64,000 nt of DNA from Paenibacillus spongiae (lineage in GTDB: Bacteria > Bacillota > Bacilli > Paenibacillales > Paenibacillaceae): positions 3,366,501 to 3,430,500 of the forward strand of contig NZ_CP091430.1 of the NCBI RefSeq assembly GCF_024734895.1, written 5' to 3'. The position numbers were made by a program, and so were the translations under genes. Below the pieces are notes generated by a model. That model was not told where the DNA came from and did no database searches. It saw only the letters and a list, made by a program, of their open reading frames with translations. Below are positions 37,787 to 50,569 of this stretch, in pieces (position 1 is the stretch's first letter; each line of letters starts with the position of its first letter).

Positions 37787-39340
37787 ATGTGCAAAATACT
37801 CATTGTGGACGATGAGAAGTTTGAAAGAGAAGGCGTGAAATTCCTCATCGACAAATATAACCTGGATCTGGAGGTATATGAAGCGGATAGCGGGGAGAAG
37901 GCTCTTGCTTATATGCAGCATAATCCGGTCGAAATCCTGTTCACGGATATCCGCATGAAAGGAATGGATGGGCTGCAATTAGCCGAGCAAGTGAGGGAAA
38001 TGAAGCTGCCCGTCAAGGTGATTTTCATGAGCGCCTACGGAGAGTTTGAATATGCCAAGCGGGCAATCGATTTGAAAGCGATTCATTATATATTAAAGCC
38101 TGTCGAAGTAAGCGAATTTTTGAAAGTGGTTTCAGAAGTCATTGAGATGGTTGAACAGGAACGGAAGGACAAGGAAGAGCAGGAAAGGGTCCAGGAAATT
38201 TACGGCAAGGGGCTTCGCTATGAACGAAAGATAATTTTTTCGCAGCTGCTTCACGGCGGGAACCATGATGCCGAGGATGAACAGGTAGAGCCGTCTGGAC
38301 CAGCATTTAAGTTTACCGGTTCGAAGCCGGTCCGAATGATGATGCTGGATACCCGGGAACGGTTCTTCGATTTGACCGGTTCCGAATTTGACGCCTGCCT
38401 GGCAGATCTGCTCGACAGGCCATTCGACGCAGTGAACCTGAACGAATGCCAAAGTCTCTTGTTTATTGAAGTTTCGGAGGGAGAGAGCGATTACGATCTG
38501 GAGTCGCTGGGCAATCGCTTGATCCAATGGTTCAAGGAAACCTACATCCGAGACGTATATATTGTGTGCAGCGGCCACATTCAACATGTCGGGCAAATAC
38601 GCGATGTTTATAATGAATTCGAATCGATCCTGGAATGTAAGTTCTTCAATGAGCAAGGGATCTTCATGTTTACCGGCAGCGCATTGTCGGATGACGGCAG
38701 TTCAATCGATGTGGAGCAATTGTTGGATGAAATCAGGAATGACGTGGAGAGGAATGAATATAGTTCCGTTCGGACACGATTTGAACGGTTGTATGACAGC
38801 TTGCAGGGGGGTAGACAAGTATCTTCAATATACTTGAAATACATCTGCATGGAAATCGTGAAAAGCATGTACGGCGCTTCATCGAGGAAAGACGCGAACA
38901 GCTTCAAGAATAACGTGCAATTAATCTACAATACGAATAAATTAAGCGATTTGATTAAAATTATGATTTCGGTGATCGACAATAGCGAATTTACGGACAA
39001 GAACGCTCCGGATTCGATACGCAAAGTGATCGATGACGTTACGAAGCTGATCAGAAGTGAGTACCATCGGGATCTGTCGGTCGAGGAGATTGCCGAGAAG
39101 GTTTATTTATCCCCTAATTACTTGAGTCATTTGTTCAAGAAGCATAGCGGCGTAAGCATTATTAAGTTCATTACGTCGACACGGATGGAGAAAGCCAAGC
39201 AGCTGCTGACCCAAACGAATAAGAAGGTCGCCGACATTAGCGAAGAAACAGGCTACAGCAATGTGGCTTACTTCTGCACCTTGTTCAAGACGTATCACGG
39301 CAAGACGCCGACTCAGTTCAGAGAAGATCTTGGCGTATGA
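37787..39340 (+). CDS. YesN-type response regulator with AraC DNA-binding domain
   Basis: The 517-residue protein has a receiver domain (1-120) with Asp8, Asp9 and the phospho-acceptor Asp54 in ILFTDIRMKGMDG. A long middle region with no recognisable domain follows. The C-terminal AraC-type domain (about 415-515) shows SVEEIAEKVYLSPNYLSHLFKKH and VADISEETGYSNVAYFCTLFK. It would bind the promoter of the sugar importer when phosphorylated. The start is placed at 37787 because it gives a canonical MCKILIVDDE; an in-frame ATG at 37778 is too close to the AAGGA site. It overlaps the kinase gene by four bases. Confidence 0.9.
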   Translation: MCKILIVDDEKFEREGVKFLIDKYNLDLEVYEADSGEKALAYMQHNPVEILFTDIRMKGMDGLQLAEQVREMKLPVKVIFMSAYGEFEYAKRAIDLKAIHYILKPVEVSEFLKVVSEVIEMVEQERKDKEEQERVQEIYGKGLRYERKIIFSQLLHGGNHDAEDEQVEPSGPAFKFTGSKPVRMMMLDTRERFFDLTGSEFDACLADLLDRPFDAVNLNECQSLLFIEVSEGESDYDLESLGNRLIQWFKETYIRDVYIVCSGHIQHVGQIRDVYNEFESILECKFFNEQGIFMFTGSALSDDGSSIDVEQLLDEIRNDVERNEYSSVRTRFERLYDSLQGGRQVSSIYLKYICMEIVKSMYGASSRKDANSFKNNVQLIYNTNKLSDLIKIMISVIDNSEFTDKNAPDSIRKVIDDVTKLIRSEYHRDLSVEEIAEKVYLSPNYLSHLFKKHSGVSIIKFITSTRMEKAKQLLTQTNKKVADISEETGYSNVAYFCTLFKTYHGKTPTQFREDLGV

Positions 39341-41052
39341 AAAACATGCTGTATCGATGGATCAACCGGATCCGGTTGAAGCAGAAGCTGTTCCTGTCCT
39401 ATTTAATCGTCATTATCATTCCCATTACGGTGCTGGGCATCTATAATTACTGGCAGTCCAAGCAGCTGCTTGGCGTTCAAGCCGAACAGTCACTGGAACG
39501 CAGCGCGGATACGATCGCCCAGAATATGAACTTCAAGCTGGAGCAGTATAGGAATACCGCCAACATTATTTTGTATAACAGCGCCATTCAAAAAATTGTA
39601 AGCACGACGTACCTCGATTATGTCAATTTGCGATGGGATTTGGACCAGTATTTATACCAGCAGTTCAAGATGATCGTTGCTTTGAACAAAGAAATCGTGC
39701 ATCTTACGATTTATACAGAAGCGGATATACCGGAATCCGGAACAGCGCTTGTGTCAGCCACGCGTGTTGCCAACGAAGCCTGGTACAAGCAAGCGGTCGG
39801 CCATTCGGCGCCGGTATGGGGGTGGGATTCCGGTCATGTTTACCTGGCTAGTCCATTCCCAAGCTTAATGGTCAATGGGAAGAACAACGTATTATACATG
39901 AATATTGACTATGACCAATTCTTCGCTCCCATCAGCCAGCTAACGAGTGATTTAGGAATTATCGTGGCTGATACTGCCGGGGAAATCATCTATTCGAATC
40001 AGGGGCAAATCGATGACCGGCTAGGCATGGCTGATATGAAAGAGCAAGATATCATCAAGTCCGATGGAGGCACATCCTTGATCGGCGGCCAACGTATGCT
40101 TGTCGTGAAGAATGCCATCTCTCAGGGCAATTGGTTCATGTACACTTACGTACCCGTGAGCCAGGTTTCTCCCGACGCCGGCAACATCATCAAGGCGACG
40201 CTAATCGTAATCGGACTTTGCCTATTGCTTCTGATCGGCATTATATTACTTTTATCCAACACGATGATTAAGCGCATTCATCTCCTGCTGACCTGGATGA
40301 AACGGGTGGAACAGGGCGAGCTTAACTTGCAAATCAAAACCACATCGACCGACGAGATCGGAGATCTGACAGTTCGTTTCGGCAATATGCTGCATCGTCT
40401 GAACAATCTGATTCAGGAAGTATACGCCAATACGATCGTCCAGAAGGAAGCGGAGCTGCGGGCGCTGCAAGCGCAAATCAGTCCTCACTTTCTCTATAAT
40501 ACGTTATCCTTTATCAACTGGAGGGCGCTAAGAAGCGACGAACATGAAATCAGTCATGTCGTCACCTCCCTGTCCAAATTTTATCGGACGGTATTGAATA
40601 AAGGGGATCAAATCATTGCGGTGAAGGATGAGATCGACAACATCAAATCTTACCTGGACATCGTCCGGATGATGAAGGATAACAGCTTCGACGTCATCTA
40701 TGAAATTGATGAGCGGATCTATTCCTACCGGATGATCAACTTCATCCTGCAGCCGCTCGTCGAGAATGCGATTCAACATGGCATCGAGAAAGATGATTCG
40801 GACAAAGGGATACTGAGAATTACGGCTTCGCTGGAGCAGGACACGATCCTGTTCACGGTAGAGGATAACGGAGTCGGAATTCCGGAGGAAATCATCGGAG
40901 AGCTATTAACAGCACAAAGCTCCGGTTATGGATTGAAGAATGTAAACGAACGCATTCAATTGAAATTCGGTTCGGAATACGGCATCGAAATTAGCAGTCA
41001 AATCGGGAAAGGCACGGTCATGAAGGTTGTCATTCCGCGCATTACCCGATAG
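39337..41052 (+). CDS. YesM-type sensor histidine kinase
   Basis: The 571-residue membrane kinase has a first transmembrane segment near 15-37, an extracytoplasmic Cache-like sensor (about 40-285), and a second segment (about 288-308). A HAMP linker, a His-kinase domain with the phospho-acceptor in ISPHFLYNTLSF (His384), and the ATPase boxes EDNGVGIPEE and SGYGLKNVNERI follow. The start (ATGA overlap with the regulator) means both are made together. It senses an extracellular glycan or binding-protein signal, by analogy with YesM/YesN systems for carbohydrate uptake; the actual ligand is unknown. Confidence 0.9.
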   Translation: MKNMLYRWINRIRLKQKLFLSYLIVIIIPITVLGIYNYWQSKQLLGVQAEQSLERSADTIAQNMNFKLEQYRNTANIILYNSAIQKIVSTTYLDYVNLRWDLDQYLYQQFKMIVALNKEIVHLTIYTEADIPESGTALVSATRVANEAWYKQAVGHSAPVWGWDSGHVYLASPFPSLMVNGKNNVLYMNIDYDQFFAPISQLTSDLGIIVADTAGEIIYSNQGQIDDRLGMADMKEQDIIKSDGGTSLIGGQRMLVVKNAISQGNWFMYTYVPVSQVSPDAGNIIKATLIVIGLCLLLLIGIILLLSNTMIKRIHLLLTWMKRVEQGELNLQIKTTSTDEIGDLTVRFGNMLHRLNNLIQEVYANTIVQKEAELRALQAQISPHFLYNTLSFINWRALRSDEHEISHVVTSLSKFYRTVLNKGDQIIAVKDEIDNIKSYLDIVRMMKDNSFDVIYEIDERIYSYRMINFILQPLVENAIQHGIEKDDSDKGILRITASLEQDTILFTVEDNGVGIPEEIIGELLTAQSSGYGLKNVNERIQLKFGSEYGIEISSQIGKGTVMKVVIPRITR

Positions 41053-41068
41053 TAGATGGTGATCCATG

Positions 41069-41110
41069 CAGTCTCGTCTCTCCCTATGTGAGAGAGGGGC
41101 TGCTTTTATT
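41069..41110 (+). terminator. Terminator between the two-component genes and the importer operon
   Basis: GCAG...CTCTC pairs with GAGAG...CTGC and runs into TTTTATTTT. It separates regulatory genes from the structural operon, which needs its own promoter in 41111-41255. Confidence 0.65.
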
Positions 41111-41255
41111 TTCGTAATCGGGGGATGAAAATAAGGTGCGAAGAAAATTGAAACAGATCGAAGATATCTGATAATTACCCTCATTTCATGGCATGGTATA
41201 GTCAATTACATGAGCTGGCCGAACATCATTGCCGACTGGAAGGAGGGACACACCA

Positions 41256-42179
41256 TTGAATGAGATCGTTTTCAAGCGTGACCGAAAGAAATGGAAGCAA
41301 TATCGCGTACTGTTTATCATGCTGATTCCCGGAATGATTTATTATCTGATCTTTCATTACATTCCGATGTACGGTGTGGTCCTGGCTTTTAAGGACTACC
41401 GATTGCTGGAAGGGATTATGGCGAGTCCATGGGTCGGGTTCCAACATTTCGAGAGCCTCTTCTCGGATCCGTATTTCTACTCCGTTCTGAAGAACACGAT
41501 CATTATCAGTTTCTACAAACTTATTTTCGGATTCCCGATACCGATCCTGTTCGCCTTATTATTGAGTGAAATTATGAGTACGAAATTCAAGAAAGTCGTG
41601 CAAACGGTTTCTTATTTGCCGCACTTTATTTCATGGGTCGTATTCGCAGGCATATTCTTCACGATCTTTTCCTTGGAAGGACCGATTAACTCGATTGTTC
41701 AAGCGTTTGGCGGCGATGCGGTTCTGTTCTTGGCCGATGACCGGTACTTCAGGACGATCCTCGTCATCACCAGCATCTATCAAGGATTCGGCTGGGGCTC
41801 GATCATTTATTTCGCGGCCATCTCCAATATCGACTCGCAATTATATGAAGCAGCTATTATTGACGGAGCAGGAAGGTTCAAACGGATGTTCTATATTTCG
41901 ATTCCGATGCTGCTCCCGGTCATATCCATTATGCTGATTCTATCGATGTCAGGCGTTCTGGATGCCGGCTTCGACCAAATCTTTAACATGTACAACACGC
42001 AAGTCTACAGCGTTGCGGACATCATTGACACGTATGTTTACCGCCAAGGGCTGGTGGAGATGAATTACAGTACGGCTACGGCGGTCGGGCTGTTCAAATC
42101 GCTGGTCGCTCTGATCCTCATAATCGTTGTCAACAGTATCGTGAAGCTGATGGGACAAAAAGATCATGCTTTGTGGTAG
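41256..42179 (+). CDS. Sugar ABC importer permease, LplB type
   Basis: The permease of 307 residues has six membrane segments and the EAA-loop ANIDSQLYEAAIIDGAGRFKR (only EAAIIDGAG is the conserved core, about residues 205-213). It resembles LplB and YteP, which import oligosaccharides. The start was set at TTG 41256, behind AAGGAGGGA; the upstream frame contains no better start. It is the first gene of the structural operon and pairs with the permease at 42207. Confidence 0.88.
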   Translation: MNEIVFKRDRKKWKQYRVLFIMLIPGMIYYLIFHYIPMYGVVLAFKDYRLLEGIMASPWVGFQHFESLFSDPYFYSVLKNTIIISFYKLIFGFPIPILFALLLSEIMSTKFKKVVQTVSYLPHFISWVVFAGIFFTIFSLEGPINSIVQAFGGDAVLFLADDRYFRTILVITSIYQGFGWGSIIYFAAISNIDSQLYEAAIIDGAGRFKRMFYISIPMLLPVISIMLILSMSGVLDAGFDQIFNMYNTQVYSVADIIDTYVYRQGLVEMNYSTATAVGLFKSLVALILIIVVNSIVKLMGQKDHALW

Positions 42180-42206
42180 ATTTTCTGGAATTGGGAGGCA
42201 GCACAT

Positions 42207-43103
42207 GTGATTAACGTAAAAAAATCGCCGGGAGACAAAATCATTGATGCCGTATTGTATCTTCTGATGACTGTGATCATACTGGTGACGTTGTATCCAT
42301 TTTGGACGCAAGTGGTCATTTCGCTCGATGGTTCGGGAGCGAAAAGCGCGGCGTATTCATCCGGTTTGGTTCTGTTTCCCAAAGAGATCTCTTTCGGAAG
42401 CTACTCGCTTGCCTTTCAATACGATGCGTTGTGGAGCGGCTATTGGAACACCATCGTACGTACAGTGCTAGGCGTCATTTTGGCGGTGACCTTCACCTCT
42501 ATTACGGCATATCCGCTAGCCAAGAAGGATTTACCTTATAATCGGGTCTTTACCGGAATCATCTTATTTACCATGCTGTTTGGCGGCGGGTTAATTCCGA
42601 CTTACTTGTTGATTAAAGAGCTCGGCATGTATAACACGGTATGGGCACTGGTCGTTCCGGGCATGATCAGCGCATTCAACGTCTTGATCATCCGCAATTT
42701 CTTCCGGGCGATTCCAGAGGAATTGGAGGAGTCGGCCCGGGTGGATGGCGCCGGTTATAGCCGGATTTTCATCCAAATCGTGCTTCCATTATCGAAGCCG
42801 GTTCTGGCAACGATTGCCTTGTGGGTAGGGGTAGGACACTGGAACGCCTGGTTCGACAGCATGATCTATATTTCCGATCCCGATAATCAAGTGCTGCAGA
42901 TGGTGCTTCGAAAAATCATTATCGAGAACAATACGACGGACTTGACGGTATTGATGCAGAACCTGTCGAACCAATCGGATTTCTCGGGCAGGCAGCTGCA
43001 GTCGACCATCATTATGTTCTCGATTATTCCGATGCTTCTTATTTATCCGTTTATCCAGAAATACTTTGTTAAAGGTGTTATGATTGGCGCTGTTAAAGGG
43101 TGA
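42207..43103 (+). CDS. Sugar ABC importer permease, YtcP type
   Basis: This is the second permease of the importer, 298 residues and six membrane segments. Its EAA loop reads EELEESARVDGAGYSRIF, typical of the YtcP/AraQ-like partner. It starts with GTG behind GGAGG, 27 bp after the LplB-type gene. The importer has no ATPase gene in the window; a shared MsmX-like ATPase elsewhere would have to supply it. Confidence 0.88.
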   Translation: MINVKKSPGDKIIDAVLYLLMTVIILVTLYPFWTQVVISLDGSGAKSAAYSSGLVLFPKEISFGSYSLAFQYDALWSGYWNTIVRTVLGVILAVTFTSITAYPLAKKDLPYNRVFTGIILFTMLFGGGLIPTYLLIKELGMYNTVWALVVPGMISAFNVLIIRNFFRAIPEELEESARVDGAGYSRIFIQIVLPLSKPVLATIALWVGVGHWNAWFDSMIYISDPDNQVLQMVLRKIIIENNTTDLTVLMQNLSNQSDFSGRQLQSTIIMFSIIPMLLIYPFIQKYFVKGVMIGAVKG

Positions 43104-43172
43104 TTTCAATCCAGTTGGGAGAATCCTTCTAATAGAATGTTGGACTTCATAATAAAGAAGGGGCTGGTTAAG

Positions 43173-44792
43173 GTGAAAGGGAACAAGGTACTTATTAGCG
43201 GGGCCATATGCCTTGCGATGTTCACAACCGTTCTTGCAGGATGCGGAAACGGCAATCAGAAGGAGGATTCATCCGCTCCCGGCAATACGTCGAACAAGAC
43301 GGCAAATTCGGAAGCAAACGCCCAGGGAACGCCGAAATTAACGTTCTGGTCATTCAGTCCGGAGCGAATTAAGGAGGATTCGCCCGGGGTAACCGCGGTG
43401 AAGGAGAAGTTCGGCGTCGATGTCGAGTTTGTCCCGACCACAAGCGATTCGAATCAAGAGAAGCTGAATCTGATGATCGCATCCGGCGACGTTCCCGATT
43501 GGATGAAGGAACCGAAGCCGGCCGAGTATGAGAAATATATTAAGCAAGGTGTGGCAGCAGAAATACCGCAGGAACTGATCGAGCAGAATATGCCGAAGTA
43601 TATGGAATGGATTAAACGCTTTATCGATAAAGACAATCCGTTCAAATATGTGAAGCGCGACGGGAAAATATACGGTTTGCCAACGGTTTGGGATTTGGGC
43701 ATCGACGGTCTGCAGCTTGGCTTCCGTCAAGATTGGCTCACGAAAGTCGGCATAACGAAGATACCGGAAACCATTGAAGAAATGGAAGCCGCATTGACGA
43801 AATTCCGCAATGACGATCCGGACGGCAACGGCAAGAAGGATACGTATGGAATTACGGGCACGGCCGAGAATTTGTCCAGCATGTTCAGCTCCGTGTTCGG
43901 CGCATATGATGCTTTTCCAGGCATTTTCCGTGAGAAGGACGGTAAAATTGTCAGAGGCGAGATTGAACCTGGCGCAAAACAAGCTTTGGAAGTGTTGAAC
44001 CGCTGGTATAAGAACGAATTGATCGATCCTGAGTTTGTCGTGAACAAAGGCAACAATTTCGAAGATAAAATGCTTACAGGAAAAGCCGGTGCAGGCGAAT
44101 ATTACTGGTGGGTGTTCATCCCGGGCAACGCTTTTCTCGGCGGAGAAACATGGTACGACAAGCTCCATAAACTGGATCCTAATTTCAACTGGTTGACTAC
44201 CGGCGGCGTGAAAGGTCCGGATGGAAAATTCGGTATTTCGCAAAGTCCTCCGGGATCGGGTACGGGTCTCATGTTCGGCAAACAGCTGGAGAAGGATCAA
44301 GAGAAGCTGACCAAATATTTGCAAATATTCGAAGCGACTCAGTTTGACCCTGAAATTTATGAATTATTGAATTTTGGCGTCAAGGGCACCCATTGGAATT
44401 TGAACGACAAAGGTATCGTAGAGTACATCAAGCCATACGACGATCAGAAAGAACGCGATAAGCTTGGCATTGCCGGCGGCTATTCGATGTCTGGATCCTT
44501 TAACGATTATGATTTCCAAACGTCGTATACTTCCGATAAGTCGCTGCGCCAATTAGCCAAGGACACGAGAGCGAAGGGCACTCAAATCTATGATATATTG
44601 AACGCTTATCAGAAACCGGTCTTAAACGAGTATCAGGACAGACTGACTCAATTTACGCTGCAAAACTACATCGATTTCATTACGGGACGCAAATCGTTAA
44701 CCGAATTCGATCAATATGTTGCAGAGTGGAAGAAGATGGGCGGAGATAAAGTAATGCAGGAAGCGGAAACGTTGTATAATCAAAATAAGTAA
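43173..44792 (+). CDS. Extracellular solute-binding lipoprotein
   Basis: The 539-residue protein has a lipoprotein signal peptide: a basic N-terminus (MKGNKV), a hydrophobic core and the lipobox LAGC at about residues 21-24. A Ser/Asn-rich spacer leads to the binding domain. DPDGNGKKDTYGITG gives an EF-hand-like calcium loop seen in such LplA-type proteins. GTG at 43173 is preferred because it directly heads the signal peptide; an ATG at 43137 would add 12 residues. It delivers an oligosaccharide or glycopeptide fragment to the two permeases. Confidence 0.9.
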   Translation: MKGNKVLISGAICLAMFTTVLAGCGNGNQKEDSSAPGNTSNKTANSEANAQGTPKLTFWSFSPERIKEDSPGVTAVKEKFGVDVEFVPTTSDSNQEKLNLMIASGDVPDWMKEPKPAEYEKYIKQGVAAEIPQELIEQNMPKYMEWIKRFIDKDNPFKYVKRDGKIYGLPTVWDLGIDGLQLGFRQDWLTKVGITKIPETIEEMEAALTKFRNDDPDGNGKKDTYGITGTAENLSSMFSSVFGAYDAFPGIFREKDGKIVRGEIEPGAKQALEVLNRWYKNELIDPEFVVNKGNNFEDKMLTGKAGAGEYYWWVFIPGNAFLGGETWYDKLHKLDPNFNWLTTGGVKGPDGKFGISQSPPGSGTGLMFGKQLEKDQEKLTKYLQIFEATQFDPEIYELLNFGVKGTHWNLNDKGIVEYIKPYDDQKERDKLGIAGGYSMSGSFNDYDFQTSYTSDKSLRQLAKDTRAKGTQIYDILNAYQKPVLNEYQDRLTQFTLQNYIDFITGRKSLTEFDQYVAEWKKMGGDKVMQEAETLYNQNK

Positions 44793-44810
44793 TAAATGCC
44801 AGCACATCTC

Positions 44811-44849
44811 GCACAGAAGGGACATCATAAGCAGATGTCCCTTCTGTGC
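44811..44849 (+). terminator. Strong hairpin between binding protein and GH101 genes
   Basis: A perfect 16-bp stem (44811-44826 with 44834-44849) and a 7-nt loop stand in the 150-bp gap. There is no U-tract, so it likely acts as a partial terminator or an mRNA-end stabiliser. That would keep the binding protein in excess over the enzymes. Confidence 0.6.
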
Positions 44850-44942
44850 TGTTGTAACGGAATACCCGCTGGCTTCGTCCTACTTACCGGCACCGGTGAC
44901 GTATAACAGAGTGGAAAATACGCTTTGAATGAGGTGAATACG

Positions 44943-47900
44943 ATGTGGAATATCGTGAAAGGCGCTGGACATTGGAAGGCGGCGGAGGAAGCGATCGAGT
45001 TGAAAGCGAATGGTTCCGATACGCTGATCGTGAATGTGAGCAGTCCCGCATTGGCGGATGGCGAGCTTGCTTTTACGCTCACGCCATTGAATCCGCAAGG
45101 AAAGATTGGCGCGCTGATTCGATATGCTTCGCCGGAGTCCTGGGTATTCATCGGCTGCGACAAGCCGATGGACCCGTTTGGCCAAAGCACGTGGATTTGG
45201 TCACTCCCAAGCGGTGAGCAAGGCATTCTATTTAAGAGAGATCCGCTGTATGAGGGGAAAGCATACCGGATCAAGCTTCGGTATATGGGCTCGCTGCTCA
45301 CGGTATGGATCGACGATTATCAGGCTTATCATGGGCATATTCCTCAGATGAAACAGGAGACGGGACGCACCGGGTTTCGGGTATGGGCTTCTGAGGCAGA
45401 TCGGGAGCAAGATGAAGGATATGGACGGATAAGCGGGATTAAAGAAGACGCCGTTTCAAGTTTATTCGATGATCGTGCAAATTCAGACGATGTAGAGCTG
45501 CAAGCATGCGATAACGTCTTCCATCACATCCTTGCGTCGGAAGAGCTGGAAGTACGTGTGGATGATTCGTTTCCGAAAGTGCTGGAATACCGGTGGAGGG
45601 CAACAGGCGCTGTGTTGTATGGTCAAGATAAGCGCCTTGCCTGCTTGCTGATCAACGGCGATGGCTACGAGCCGGTCGTAAGATTCCACATGAGCGGGAA
45701 TGAGGCGTCATATCGGCTTTCCTTTCCTGAGATTCAAGTGGACATGACCGTGATCTTCAAGGTTAATGACACCATGCTTGAGATGAGCATAACCGATATT
45801 CGAGAAACGGGCGAATTTCGGGTCATGACGATCGAGTTTCCCCATCATAGCCTCGTATCCGTACGAAGCGTGCAGGAGAGAGCTCATGCCGCTTGTGCGG
45901 AAGGCATTAAAGGCGATCATCTATTTGCTGTTAACGGGCAAGAAGAAGCTCCGGTTCATGCGTATTATTCCATTGCCATTCTCAATACGAATGAGCTGGC
46001 TGCGACCGTTCTAAATAACGTGCTGACGAATCGCAGACGGGTCTGTGTTCGAACGGTTCGCAAGAACGGCTTTATGGAGACCGGACTATGGAACAGTTAT
46101 TGGACGTATCGGGGGCCTGACGGCGAAGTAGTCGGAGAGCCTTGGGCCAAGGTTGTCATCACGTCCGACCGGAACGGTGACGGAATCGTCGATTGGCAGG
46201 ATGGAGCAATTGCTTATCGGGAAGTGAAAGGCACGATACCCGGCGCGGAAATGCTGAGAAACAGCTACGCGCATATCGCCATGAATTTTGCCAGCATGGC
46301 TCAGAATCCGTTTCTACGCATCTTGGATCATGTGAAGAAGTTTTACCTGTACTCAGACGGCTTCGGTCAGATGATCGAACTGAAAGGCTATCAATCGGAA
46401 GGCCATGACAGCGGGCATCCCGATTATGGAAGCATTAATGGCAGGGCAGGCGGTATAAGCGATTTGAATCTTCTCGTTGACCGATCGCTCGCGTATGGCG
46501 CTGCCATTGGCGTTCATATCAATCACAGCGAAGCATATCCGGAAGCGGAAGCGTATACAGATTCCATCATGACGACAACGCCGGGGTGGAGATGGCTGGA
46601 TCAGTCCTTCTATATCGATCGAGAGAAGGACATCATGTCCGGCGGATTCGATCGGCGGCTGGATGAGCTGAGAGAGAATGTGCCCAATGTCAGCTTCGTG
46701 TATGTCGATACGTATCGGGACGAGCATTGGGCTGCTTACAGACTGGTGAAGAAGCTTCATGACAATGGCTGGGTCATATGGACGGAAGAGGCGGATATGC
46801 TGGATCAGCACGCGATATGGACGCATGACAGTACCGGGGACAGTGTGGTTTCCAGATTTATACATCATACGGATAAGGATGCTTACGACGTTCATCCATT
46901 GCTCAAAGGCGGATATACCCGTGCCGTTGATAACGGCTTTATGGGCTGGCAGCGGGAGCGGGATCTTACCGCCGCCATTGAATCCTTCTTCACCAAACAG
47001 CTTCCATACCGCTATCTCATGCATTTCCCGATTATGAAATGGATGGATGCCGAAATCATTTTAGAAGGGAATGTGATCTCACGATTAGAGGACGGGGAAG
47101 CACATCTTTACCGTAACGGCATCAGGATGGCATCGGGCAATACCGTCTTCATACCATGGGACCCCCATAAGGAGGATAAAATATATCATTGGAATCCTGC
47201 TGGCGGCGAGAGTACATGGACCTTGCCGGAGAGTTGGCAGAAGCGGGTGCAGGTGACGGAATCTGATCATAAGCAATCATGGAATCATGTGAAATTGTAC
47301 AGATTGACGGATTTGGGGCGTGTGTTTGTCAGCGACCTGCCGGTAACTGAGGGGACGGTTACAATTAGCGCCGAAGCCCGCACACCGTATGTTATCTATC
47401 CTTCGGAAGCTCCCCCGCTGGCAGAGATAATCTGGGGAGAAGGCAGTCCGGTTAAGGACATGGGCTTCGACAGCCACGGGTTTATATATTGGAAGAAATC
47501 GTCGACGTCACCAAGTACGGATCATATTTCGATCCGGAACACCCGTTACGGTCAATCCTATTTGCACATATCCGGTAACGGCGGTGCAGACGCTGAAGTA
47601 TCGCAGGAGATGACGGGATTGGAATACGGGAAAACATACTCCGCTTCCGTATGGGTGCAAGTATCGGAAGGCAGATCGGCAGCAATAATCGTTGCCCAAT
47701 ATGGCGGACCCGACGTGATCAAGGAAATTAACCGGACCGCAGTCGTCAATTGGGACATCGACTCCGGCAGGCGGGAGACGTATTATCAGAGGCTTCGTTT
47801 GACCTTTACGATCCCTGATGCTGCTGTTGGTGTCGATGGAACGCGTCCCATTCTTGTCTTGAGAGCGGGAGCGGGTGATACGGATTCCTATGTCCACTTT

Positions 47901-48410
47901 GACGATGTCCGGGTAAGGGAACTTGGGAATTCGATCCAACAGGATTGTGATCGAGACCATTACTACTATGAAGATTTCGAGGATGTGGATGAAGGATGGG
48001 GCCCGTTCGTAAGCTCTAACAGCATGATCGGAAAAACCCATCTATCCCGGCGGCATGCCGGATACACGAACGATACGATCGGCGGGGACTGGTCGATGAA
48101 GACGATGGATGAGAGGTCCGGCGAACTGTTCCGGACATTGCCCTCCACGGTGCTCTTCGATCCTAATCAGAGGTACCGGATCATGTTCGATTACAAGGCA
48201 GACCATGAAGGACAATATACGGCCGTTATCAGAGCTGTGGATGGCGATACGTTAATGGAATGCGCCAGTACAGCCTTGAAGGAAGGATTACACCGCTTCG
48301 AGATGGAATTTATGACTAATCGCGGGCAGGATCATTATTTTGCCATCGTTAAGAACGATGATGCCCGGGGAGCGCTAGTGTTGGACCATTTTACCGTCGA
48401 TTACGGCTAA
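44943..48410 (+). CDS. GH101-type endo-alpha-N-acetylgalactosaminidase, non-secreted
   Basis: This 1155-residue protein has an N-terminal beta-sandwich (about 1-170, with WVFIGCDKPM) and a beta-supersandwich region. The TIM barrel (about 420-700) has the GH101 hallmarks FVYVDTYRDEHW, with Asp589 as likely nucleophile, and NGWVIWTEEAD, with Glu615 or Glu616 as acid/base candidate. C-terminal jelly-roll carbohydrate-binding-like domains follow (about 820-1150). GH101 enzymes release the Gal-beta-1,3-GalNAc disaccharide from mucin-type O-glycans. Known members are large secreted proteins, whereas this one starts MWNIVKGAGHW with no signal peptide. The ATG at 44943 follows GAGGTG. Family assignment rests on motifs only; a related clan member is possible. 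Confidence 0.75.
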   Translation: MWNIVKGAGHWKAAEEAIELKANGSDTLIVNVSSPALADGELAFTLTPLNPQGKIGALIRYASPESWVFIGCDKPMDPFGQSTWIWSLPSGEQGILFKRDPLYEGKAYRIKLRYMGSLLTVWIDDYQAYHGHIPQMKQETGRTGFRVWASEADREQDEGYGRISGIKEDAVSSLFDDRANSDDVELQACDNVFHHILASEELEVRVDDSFPKVLEYRWRATGAVLYGQDKRLACLLINGDGYEPVVRFHMSGNEASYRLSFPEIQVDMTVIFKVNDTMLEMSITDIRETGEFRVMTIEFPHHSLVSVRSVQERAHAACAEGIKGDHLFAVNGQEEAPVHAYYSIAILNTNELAATVLNNVLTNRRRVCVRTVRKNGFMETGLWNSYWTYRGPDGEVVGEPWAKVVITSDRNGDGIVDWQDGAIAYREVKGTIPGAEMLRNSYAHIAMNFASMAQNPFLRILDHVKKFYLYSDGFGQMIELKGYQSEGHDSGHPDYGSINGRAGGISDLNLLVDRSLAYGAAIGVHINHSEAYPEAEAYTDSIMTTTPGWRWLDQSFYIDREKDIMSGGFDRRLDELRENVPNVSFVYVDTYRDEHWAAYRLVKKLHDNGWVIWTEEADMLDQHAIWTHDSTGDSVVSRFIHHTDKDAYDVHPLLKGGYTRAVDNGFMGWQRERDLTAAIESFFTKQLPYRYLMHFPIMKWMDAEIILEGNVISRLEDGEAHLYRNGIRMASGNTVFIPWDPHKEDKIYHWNPAGGESTWTLPESWQKRVQVTESDHKQSWNHVKLYRLTDLGRVFVSDLPVTEGTVTISAEARTPYVIYPSEAPPLAEIIWGEGSPVKDMGFDSHGFIYWKKSSTSPSTDHISIRNTRYGQSYLHISGNGGADAEVSQEMTGLEYGKTYSASVWVQVSEGRSAAIIVAQYGGPDVIKEINRTAVVNWDIDSGRRETYYQRLRLTFTIPDAAVGVDGTRPILVLRAGAGDTDSYVHFDDVRVRELGNSIQQDCDRDHYYYEDFEDVDEGWGPFVSSNSMIGKTHLSRRHAGYTNDTIGGDWSMKTMDERSGELFRTLPSTVLFDPNQRYRIMFDYKADHEGQYTAVIRAVDGDTLMECASTALKEGLHRFEMEFMTNRGQDHYFAIVKNDDARGALVLDHFTVDYG

Positions 48411-48430
48411 GAGGAGAGGATCAGTCTATT

Positions 48431-50569
48431 ATGCAAACCCAAATCAATGAACTTCCCTATAAACAGCATCAATCGTATTCGTCTGCGAATCCGGATTGGC
48501 TTATTCATCCTGAATCTTACAAAGCCGGCATTTACCGTGGCGAGCATGATCATGAAATCGTCATGACGAACGGTTTGATTAGCCGAACCTGGCGGATAAA
48601 GCCCAATGCAGCAACTGTAGCTTTCCACAATCTAATGACGGACGAAACGATAATCCGCGGCGTGAAGCCGGAAGCGATATTGCGAATATCCGGAGAGGAT
48701 GTCGCTGTTGGCGGTCTGGTCGGGCAGCCGGATTATGCGTACCTGCGGCCGGAATGGGTGGATGGTCTGACTTCAGACCCGACTGCATTCCAATGCACCG
48801 GCTTCGAGACGGACCTGACCAAAGAGCGGTTCCCGTGGAAGAAGAATCATGTCTCGGCGAACAGGCCATGGCCTGCACCCGGTGTATCCTTGGTCTTTCA
48901 TTACGAATCCGCAGCGGAAATAACAAGCGGCCTGTCCGTAAGCGTTCACTATGAGCTGTATGACGGCATACCGCTTCTCTCCAAGTGGCTGCAAGTTCAT
49001 AACAATGGCAGCAGTTGCGTGAAGCTGGAATCGTTCACGAGCGAGCTGTTAGCCGTAGTGGAATGGGAGTCCCCCGTCGAGTCTCCGGATCGATGGGAGT
49101 ATCCGAACCTGCATGTCGAGAGCGATTATTCGTTTCAAGGAATGGCGCAGAAGAAGGCGAACCGGACCACGCATTGGGTACCGGATCCGGACTACAAGAC
49201 TCAGATCAACTATGATTGTCTGACGCCAGCCCTGTTGGAAAGCCGTCCCCCGATCGGTCCGAATGTGGAGCTTGAGCCCGGGGAGACGTTCGACACGTTC
49301 CGTACGTTCGTGCTTGTCCACGACAGCACGGACAGGGAACGAAAAGGGCTTGCCCAGCGGAAGATGTACCGTACCAATGCCCCGTGGATCGAAGAAAATC
49401 CGATCTTTATGCATGTCCGCAGCATGGATCCGGCTGTCATTCGCGAAGCGATCGACCAATGTGCGGAAGTCGGGTTCGAAATGGTTATTCTATCGTTCGG
49501 CAGCGGGCTGAATATGGAAGAGGAGGATCCCGCTTATATCGCGGCCTTGAAAGAACTGGCGGACTACGCGCACGGCAAGGGGATCGCGATCGGCGGTTAT
49601 TCGCTGCTTGCCAGCCGTTCGATTAGCCCCGAGCACGATATCGTAAATCCGGATGGCGCCTATTACGTGCATTCGCCATGCCTGGAGAGCCGCTGGGGAC
49701 AAGCGTATTTCCGCAAGCTGCAGTCTTTCTTCGAACGGACGGGCTTCGATATTCTGGAGCATGACGGATCTTATCCGGGCGATATATGCGATTCAACCGA
49801 TCATCCGGGACATCATGGCCGGCATGATTCTCAATGGAAGCAGTGGAAACGGATATCCGGTTTTTACCAATGGTGCAGAGGCCAAGGTATCTACTTGAAT
49901 GTTCCGGACTGGTATTTCCTGTCCGGATCCAATAAAGCCGGGATGGGCTACCGGGAAGTCAACTTCGCGCTGCCGCGGGACCGGCAGGTTTTACTTTCGA
50001 GACAAAATATATACGATGGGACATGGGAGAAAGCGCCGAGTATGGGATGGATGTTCGTCCCATTAACGGAATATCACGGCGGCGGACCGGAGTCGACTTT
50101 GGAACCGCTTAGCGAGCATCTGGACACTTACGATGCCCATCTCATGAATAATTTCACGGCAGGCGTGCAGGCGAGCTATCGCGGGTTCCGGTTGTATGAT
50201 ACCGAGGAAACCAAGCAGGTCGTTCGCAAATGGGTCGATTTCTATAAGCAATACCGCGGTATTTTGGAATCGGATCTGATCCATGTAAGAAGGCCGAGCG
50301 GACGGGATGTTGATTGCATGCTGCACGTGAATCCGATGCAGAAGCATAAGGGAATGGCCTTTGTCTATAATCCGTTGGATAAGGAAATCGAGCAGACGTT
50401 GGAGCTGCCGTTATACTACACAGGGATAAGCACCAGAGCTATGATTCGGGAGCAGGAAGGGGAGCTTCGAGAATATGAGCTTGACCGTAATTATCGCGTA
50501 CAGGTACAACTGTCCATCGCTCCGAAGAGTATGACCTGGTTCGTGATTGAAGGATCAGTAGGAGGTTGA
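48431..50569 (+). CDS. Alpha-galactosidase-like glycosidase (clan GH-D-like TIM barrel)
   Basis: The 712-residue protein has an N-terminal beta-sandwich (about 20-310), a TIM barrel (about 320-600) and a C-terminal beta domain. Barrel strand residues IREAIDQCAEVGFEMVIL and FDILEHDGSYPGD (Asp445 as candidate nucleophile) resemble alpha-galactosidase/alpha-N-acetylgalactosaminidase barrels, but the exact GH family is not assigned by eye. It lacks a signal peptide. It lies 20 bp after the GH101 gene with AGAGGAG upstream, so both are co-transcribed and probably work on the same imported glycan. Confidence 0.65.
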   Translation: MQTQINELPYKQHQSYSSANPDWLIHPESYKAGIYRGEHDHEIVMTNGLISRTWRIKPNAATVAFHNLMTDETIIRGVKPEAILRISGEDVAVGGLVGQPDYAYLRPEWVDGLTSDPTAFQCTGFETDLTKERFPWKKNHVSANRPWPAPGVSLVFHYESAAEITSGLSVSVHYELYDGIPLLSKWLQVHNNGSSCVKLESFTSELLAVVEWESPVESPDRWEYPNLHVESDYSFQGMAQKKANRTTHWVPDPDYKTQINYDCLTPALLESRPPIGPNVELEPGETFDTFRTFVLVHDSTDRERKGLAQRKMYRTNAPWIEENPIFMHVRSMDPAVIREAIDQCAEVGFEMVILSFGSGLNMEEEDPAYIAALKELADYAHGKGIAIGGYSLLASRSISPEHDIVNPDGAYYVHSPCLESRWGQAYFRKLQSFFERTGFDILEHDGSYPGDICDSTDHPGHHGRHDSQWKQWKRISGFYQWCRGQGIYLNVPDWYFLSGSNKAGMGYREVNFALPRDRQVLLSRQNIYDGTWEKAPSMGWMFVPLTEYHGGGPESTLEPLSEHLDTYDAHLMNNFTAGVQASYRGFRLYDTEETKQVVRKWVDFYKQYRGILESDLIHVRRPSGRDVDCMLHVNPMQKHKGMAFVYNPLDKEIEQTLELPLYYTGISTRAMIREQEGELREYELDRNYRVQVQLSIAPKSMTWFVIEGSVGG

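Follow-up and report, generated by a model that had tools for sequence, protein, structure and literature searches.

Enzymes of family GH101 are described, in the portions of the literature accessible to us, as acting outside the cell, and the locus at positions 37787-50569 of the window (the whole 64,000-nucleotide stretch of Paenibacillus spongiae DNA that was analysed) raises the question of what a GH101 enzyme without a signal peptide does beside the genes of a predicted sugar importer. All seven genes (7/7) are present on the + strand, which also holds for the features below. Gene calls and Pfam matches uphold the view of the first-pass annotation that a YesN/YesM pair, LplB/YtcP permeases, a lipoprotein and two enzymes make up one locus. 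The YesN-type response regulator (37787..39340, ATG start at 37787) comprises a receiver and an AraC HTH domain (PF00072, 4.5e-25; PF12833, 7.1e-22), and the YesM-type sensor kinase (39337..41052) has Cache-like, HAMP and His_kinase parts (PF06580, 1.9e-23; PF02518, HATPase; PF00672), with the dCache_1 match found only below its Pfam cut-off. The LplB-type permease (41229..42179; PF00528, BPD_transp_1, 5.7e-11), which may start at TTG 41256 with GGAGGG ahead of it, is followed by the YtcP-type permease (42207..43103; PF00528, 7.8e-13) and the solute-binding lipoprotein, hereafter SBP (43137..44792; PF13416, 5.7e-13; PF01547; lipobox LAGC, Cys36). The operon in the window contains two permeases and an SBP and no ATPase gene. 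Downstream lie the GH101 enzyme (44943..48410, 1155 aa) and ENZ2, a predicted glycosidase of 712 aa (48431..50569), both non-secreted as judged below. The preferred GH101 start is ATG 44943, preceded by GAGGTG, the alternative frame from TTG 44925 giving 1161 aa; an RBS-like GAGGAGAGGA at 48411-48420 stands ahead of ENZ2.

Two predicted structured elements lie between genes. A terminator-like stem-loop followed by a T-rich stretch lies 3' of yesM (41068..41112); the fold of 41060-41125 has -22.3 kcal/mol and a z of -1.73, equalled by 9/200 shuffles. This stem-loop is absent from the list of the consensus terminator scan, and the promoter/terminator scan gave a site number no higher than in shuffles. 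A 16-bp inverted repeat occupies the SBP/GH101 intergenic region (44811..44849), where the fold of 44795-44870 reaches -35.6 kcal/mol with a z of -6.3, equalled by 0/200 shuffles.

Profile search, the check proposed for the family assignment, confirmed GH101: the catalytic domain PF12905 matches at 1.1e-78 (264.9 bits against a cut-off of 25), the four accessory Pfam domains PF18080, PF17451, PF17974 and PF21466 are present, and the PDB sequence matches are EngBF and SpGH101. The NCBIfam model NF040533 of the SpGH101 type scored 356.3 bits against a curated score of 2900, and judged by sequence the window enzyme is a GH101 enzyme outside this named subtype. Alignment places D495, W555, W557, D595 and E621 (TTG-44925 frame; subtract 6 for the ATG-44943 frame) at D658, W724, W726, D764 and E796 of SpGH101, a numbering consistent with the PDB entry title E796Q. 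The nucleophile D595, the acid/base E621 and the third aspartate D495 are thus kept. Among 32 aligned rows of hand-chosen GH101 sequences, D658, W724, D764 and E796 are kept in 32/32 and W726 in 31/32; in SpGH101, W724 and W726 contribute to the binding of core 1. The surroundings differ: the sequence after the nucleophile is DTYRDE versus DVWGN in SpGH101, and the loop after the acid/base residue is shorter than that of SpGH101, a feature common to many relatives outside the clade of the window enzyme. The specificity may differ from core 1. These same differences would suit a clade that had drifted to transglycosylation or intracellular glycan recycling in an operon importing something unrelated. 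We regard this as most unlikely, given the intact catalytic pair, both tryptophans, and the import genes adjoining GH101 in 10/10 loci.

For ENZ2, called alpha-galactosidase-like in the first-pass annotation, the predicted fold is indeed GH36-like, but no Pfam or NCBIfam family matches at E 0.01. Neither the Melibiase nor the GH36 N and GH36 C Pfam models match ENZ2 of the window, and GH36N appears, weak and below cut-off, in 6/8 ENZ2 relatives scanned at E 1. Set beside the alpha-galactosidases and alpha-galactosaminidases of GH36 and clan GH-D, ENZ2 is 10-14% identical in the GH36 rows; against two GH36 proteins, profile comparison gave a non-significant probability of 2.2%. Profile comparisons of ENZ2 with GH101 and with UNK798, a glycosidase-like family covered by no Pfam or NCBIfam model, were not significant either. 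Against the PDB, the A1 profile gave a best E value of 0.091 and the A2 profile none. D445 and D529 of ENZ2, candidates for a GH36-type catalytic Asp pair, are invariant in 38 sequences and align by sequence with Asp in a 28% paralogue. At E<=0.001, 6,459 relatives of ENZ2 and 1,652 of UNK798 were found among those scored, and the ENZ2 relatives with names belong to Planctomycetota/Phycisphaerae, KSB1 and Paenibacillus. Separately, the equal-size contigs (6534) of P0029 and P0132 hint at ENZ2 adjoining GH101 in another lineage.

Where do the two enzymes work? Upstream of their ATG codons, only 12 (GH101) and 23 (ENZ2) codons are open before an in-frame stop, with no hydrophobic stretch there, which rules out a classical signal peptide on both, in agreement with the first-pass annotation. 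Signal peptides were judged throughout by a hydropathy script (N-terminal cut-off 1.9) and by reading, not by SignalP. A census of 295 genomes of the host's family, counting GH101 matches at E<=1e-50, yielded 46, nine of them in the window's clade and 37 others. None of the nine clade members bears a signal (0/9; top N-terminal hydropathy 1.64), compared with 36/37 of the others. The contrast has a Fisher value of 9e-9 with shared ancestry ignored; as the clade members all belong to a single lineage, the absence of signals among them amounts to one observation. In a tree of 152 rows, support is 98 for the 11 clade rows and 89 once P0131 is included. The second GH101 of genome G265 (locus L011), a candidate signal-less enzyme, was rejected because its full region shows a signal peptide.

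In a database sample, 98/109 GH101 sequences outside the clade were signal-bearing, seven unclear and four without a signal, and nine of 11 clade members scored none and two unclear; in the latter two, the hydrophobic stretch falls within the first domain, with its start at about residue 28-33. That relatives outside the clade bear signals (36/37 in the census, 98/109 in the database) might suggest that this GH101 also works outside, leaving the cell through lysis or along an unrecognised route that needs no signal. The signal-less clade members in both samples, the short upstream open frames (12 codons in the window, 17 in L033, four in L035 and one in L036) and the fixed link of GH101 to an importer make such an exit very unlikely. 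Lacking a classical export signal, GH101 and ENZ2 therefore probably act in the cytoplasm.

The neighbourhood of the clade points the same way. Orthologues of YesM, LplB, YtcP and the SBP adjoin the signal-less GH101 in the window and in 9/9 other clade loci, whose SBPs are 64-89% identical to that of the window, and this fixed link to one transporter type supports the proposed import followed by cutting inside the cell. Over the 10 loci, the companions are sulfatase (7), UNK798 (7), GH29 (6, plus one fragment), GH116 (3) and ENZ2 (3). The window operon contains no sulfatase, GH29 or GH116, families that are present elsewhere in its genome; one checked copy each of sulfatase, fucosidase and GH116 from the sister operons showed no signal. 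Two further loci, L060 and L063, hold orthologous transporter operons with ENZ2 and no GH101 in the stretch read, and the transporter ligand therefore need not be the GH101 substrate. The PDB entries that the SBP matches best by sequence are 5xs8, named only as SBP family 1, Smon0123 (5gub), AlgQ1 and AlgQ2, of which the last two bind alginate. Smon0123 of Streptobacillus moniliformis is an importer SBP for GAG disaccharides, according to the available part of PMC5430744.

What is imported is less clear. The GH112 phosphorylase model, which would mark a galacto-N-biose route, has no match in the window genome and matches 84/295 family genomes (13/30 genomes with other GH101 types versus 1/9 with the clade). 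This absence is not decisive, because an intracellular glycosidase such as GnbG can also hydrolyse galacto-N-biose (PMC5583593, accessible text). An M60 peptidase was likewise without a match in the window genome, the control for this search matching in E. coli, and the AgaS-like matches, at 91.7 and 32.4 bits, stay far below the cut-off of 529.2. Upstream release and GalNAc catabolism are therefore putative steps here. The assignment to O-glycan utilisation consequently stands in part, weakened by these searches and by the two operons lacking GH101, and the first-pass annotation was right to allow for a substrate other than mucin. The AgaS and M60 results, the operons of L060 and L063, the sulfatase, GH29 and GH116 genes that accompany GH101 in sister operons and the named ENZ2 relatives would also fit the import of a polysaccharide fragment that is no glycopeptide. 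Its source would be a glycan of plants, algae, fungi or bacteria that carries sulfate and fucose, and in the cytoplasm GH101 and ENZ2 would break alpha-Gal or alpha-GalNAc linkages joining one sugar to another. We consider this somewhat unlikely, as the window enzyme keeps the SpGH101 catalytic residues and both tryptophans, and O-glycans are the substrates of characterised GH101 enzymes in the available text of PMC4365749 and PMC11861894. For an O-glycopeptide or O-glycan as substrate we see about even chances, the O-glycopeptide being our best guess.

Altogether, the cluster joins two-component regulation and predicted sugar import to a signal-less GH101 and ENZ2, which fairly likely act on an imported glycan or O-glycopeptide. 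YesM would sense the glycan and YesN turn the operon on. General proteases or glycosidases would free a small soluble glycopeptide or glycan outside, to be captured by the lipoprotein and carried in by LplB/YtcP with energy from an ATPase whose gene lies elsewhere. Next, GH101 would cleave the core-1-like linkage that holds alpha-GalNAc on Ser/Thr or on a different aglycone, and ENZ2, a putative alpha-glycosidase by its modelled GH36-like fold, might take off a sugar in alpha linkage. Removal of sulfate, fucose and beta-linked sugars would fall to the enzyme families found in sister operons and elsewhere in the window genome. More tentatively, and at somewhat less than even chances, this may be a Gram-positive route for O-glycoproteins in which sulfated, fucosylated O-glycopeptides enter the cell intact and lose their sugars in the cytoplasm to a dedicated signal-less GH101 clade, ENZ2 and UNK798. 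If so, O-glycoproteins would be edible via uptake of whole glycopeptides, with the sugar hidden from competitors; a GH101 clade would have lost its export signal and become tied to import genes; and the widespread ENZ2 and UNK798 families would be placed in a testable pathway. The clade enzymes could also serve as O-glycan tools, because their active-site surroundings are unlike those of SpGH101.

Among known systems, a literature search with most subscription journals outside its coverage found no intracellular GH101 pathway, in line with the first-pass annotation, which knew of no such pathway. EngBF of Bifidobacterium longum and SpGH101 of Streptococcus pneumoniae share with the window enzyme the Pfam GH101 domain set and D764/E796, D658 and W724/W726; however, EngBF is extracellular (PMC7674204, in the part available), whereas the window enzyme has no signal peptide and adjoins import genes. 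NgtS-P1-P2 of Streptococcus pneumoniae and Smon0123 resemble the window system in the ABC import of host-glycan pieces, but their ligands, an N-glycan for NgtS-P1-P2, are other than that predicted here (accessible portions of PMC5215778 and PMC5430744). The bifidobacterial galacto-N-biose pathway likewise pairs ABC import (the LNB/GNB importer) with GH101; there, by the available text of PMC7674204, extracellular GH101 comes first, followed by import and intracellular enzymes, the reverse of the order proposed here, where GH112 is without a match. The PUL BT4240-50 of Bacteroides thetaiotaomicron, as far as the accessible part of PMC11992087 describes it, uses SusC/D import to the periplasm, GH2 with GH109/GH31 and a surface M60 peptidase, and that genome has no GH101 annotated, in contrast to the cytoplasmic route proposed here with M60 unmatched. 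Nevertheless, it is modelled as importing T/Tn O-glycopeptides before stripping them, as in our proposal, and although it lacks GH101, it is the nearest published model for import first and cleavage afterwards.

The locus (window positions 37787-50569, + strand) contains the seven genes given in the first-pass annotation: YesN, YesM, two permeases (LplB-type and YtcP-type), a binding lipoprotein, a GH101 enzyme (ATG at 44943) and ENZ2 (48431..50569), a second predicted glycosidase with a GH36-like predicted fold. A terminator-like stem-loop lies 3' of yesM, and a perfect 16-bp inverted repeat (44811-44849; -35.6 kcal/mol, z -6.3), far more stable than shuffled sequences, separates the lipoprotein gene from the GH101 gene. 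This repeat could be a site where transcription or decay is tuned to favor the binding protein over the enzyme.

Profile search assigned the GH101 protein to PF12905 (1.1e-78), with the further Pfam domains PF18080, PF17451, PF17974 and PF21466. Its PDB sequence matches include EngBF of Bifidobacterium longum (6.8e-98) and SpGH101 of Streptococcus pneumoniae (4.5e-92 to 5.3e-91), and it falls outside the NCBIfam SpGH101 subtype (356 vs 2900 bits needed). SpGH101 numbering was carried over via a Streptococcus marimammalium relative (L046) aligned to 3ecq; the title of 5a59 names E796Q. All five residues D658, W724, W726, D764 and E796 are present; in an alignment of 32 selected rows, W726 is conserved in 31 and the other four in all. 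W724 and W726 are lid residues. The nucleophile stretch DVWGN of SpGH101 corresponds to DTYRDE in the window protein, and the loop following the acid/base residue is shorter than in SpGH101, a short form common to many relatives outside the clade of signal-less enzymes described below. With active-site residues kept in differing surroundings, core-1 specificity is likely, not assured.

The claim that neither glycosidase carries a signal peptide also held, as only 12 (GH101) and 23 (ENZ2) codons are open between the preceding in-frame stop and the ATG, without a hydrophobic stretch. In related loci, four (L035) and one (L036) codons are open 5' of GH101; L034 and L037 have longer open frames (119 and 73 codons) that overlap the preceding gene, and hydropathy found no signal at their GH101 N-termini read from the first start codon. 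Among 120 GH101 relatives sampled from a database, the 11 closest to the window enzyme, all from Paenibacillus, scored as nine without signal and two unclear (the window's own and P0123, both with a hydrophobic stretch that begins near residue 28-33), compared to 98 with signal, seven unclear and four without among the other 109. Our census of 295 genomes, evenly drawn from the window's family, gave 46 GH101 matches at E<=1e-50. None of the nine clade members bears a signal (top score 1.64 vs cut-off 1.9; G045 was assessed through the identical GH101 of L035), whereas 36 of the 37 others read as signal-bearing, including G001 and G280 from a later start only and the G194 copy on contig C5 despite a score of 1.71; in the last, G019, the 5' end could not be read. 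Fisher's test gave 9e-9, but the clade is a single lineage and so represents one event. In a quick tree (152 rows out of 165 trimmed from 166; several branches flagged as long, including P0131), the clade was united at support 98, or 89 with P0131. Its neighbor is a 77-row group and the surrounding rows are mostly signal-bearing; we infer signal loss in the clade as the simplest history. A second, separate GH101 lineage (P0191, P0216 and P0218; 964-972 aa; support 100) scored as two without signal and one unclear, possibly reflecting wrong starts in metagenomic genes.

The clade enzyme adjoins YesM-LplB-YtcP-lipoprotein genes in nine other genomes (L033, L034, L035, L036, L037, L049, L051, L052 and L055), with lipoproteins 64-89% identical to that of the window; together with the window, these comprise all nine census clade genomes plus LHD-38 (L033). 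Companion counts over these ten loci are lower limits, since the loci span ~20-23 kb and some are incomplete: arylsulfatase and UNK798, another glycosidase-like family, in at least seven each; GH29 and a xylose-isomerase-like gene in at least six each, with one further fragment of each; CutC in at least five; asparaginase II in at least four; GH116 and ENZ2 in at least three each; and an ENZ2 paralogue in at least two. In L034 (one copy each), sulfatase (1.26), GH29 (0.73) and GH116 (1.65) score under the 1.9 signal cut-off; UNK798, at 2.09, exceeds it, but over residues that form the first strands of its folded domain in the model. L034 16166-23127 encodes CutC, asparaginase II, xylose-isomerase-like, GH29, sulfatase and GNAT-like proteins, in an order shared by L034, L035, L037 and L052.

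The link to GH101 is not strict. Orthologous operons in L060 and L063 (lipoprotein identity 65 and 67%) both have ENZ2, with UNK798 additionally in L060, and no GH101 was found in the stretch read. ENZ2 or its paralogue occurs in 12/295 genomes at 1e-20, in several apart from GH101. The transporter system is thus older or broader than GH101, and its ligand may be a glycan for which GH101 is needed only at times. Some ENZ2 relatives (P0077, P0109, P0117 and P0093) carry a fusion to a BNR or S9 peptidase-like domain, or a large insert.

GH112, the galacto-N-biose phosphorylase, occurs in 84/295 genomes. It is present in 13 of the 30 genomes with other GH101 types, within 10 kb of GH101 in five (G074, G094, G115, G189 and G253), compared to one of nine clade genomes, G265, which additionally has a secreted GH101. 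Both types coexist in G105, G194, G261 and G265. This distribution indicates that the secreted type often fits the known export-first route, whereas the signal-less clade does not.

Most likely, YesM/YesN would sense the substrate, the lipoprotein would capture it for import, and GH101 and ENZ2 would cut it inside the cell, aided by enzymes encoded elsewhere. By sequence match, the alginate-binding AlgQ1 and AlgQ2 are among the lipoprotein's closest relatives in the PDB, as is Smon0123. The latter binds unsaturated chondroitin and hyaluronan disaccharides (PMC5430744). By analogy with these relatives, import of charged oligosaccharides is plausible. The window genome, a single contig of 7.6 Mb with Paenibacillus as its closest named relatives, has nine GH29 matches, seven at 1.7e-31 or better. 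Sulfatases account for 36 match rows, with more than one row for a gene (best, 65% identity). It has no M60 peptidase match for upstream release, and its matches to AgaS of GalNAc catabolism lie far below cut-off. A paralogous operon carries an ENZ2 paralogue and GH20C; its UNK798 (L057 6884-9314; C1:5702919-5705304) is split over three reading frames, and an intact UNK798 (C1:5671608-5673995) adjoins GH2 ~30 kb away. GH2, a 751-aa protein with no Pfam family above cut-off and UNK798 form a recurring set in L065, L066 and L111, which comes after the ENZ2-paralogue operon in L065 and L066 and stands in another order in L111.

No intracellular GH101 pathway was found in the literature searched. 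An existing model of import-first O-glycopeptide use, that of B. theta, is set in the periplasm and does not involve GH101 (PMC11992087), whereas the window operon places a signal-less GH101 beside importer genes.
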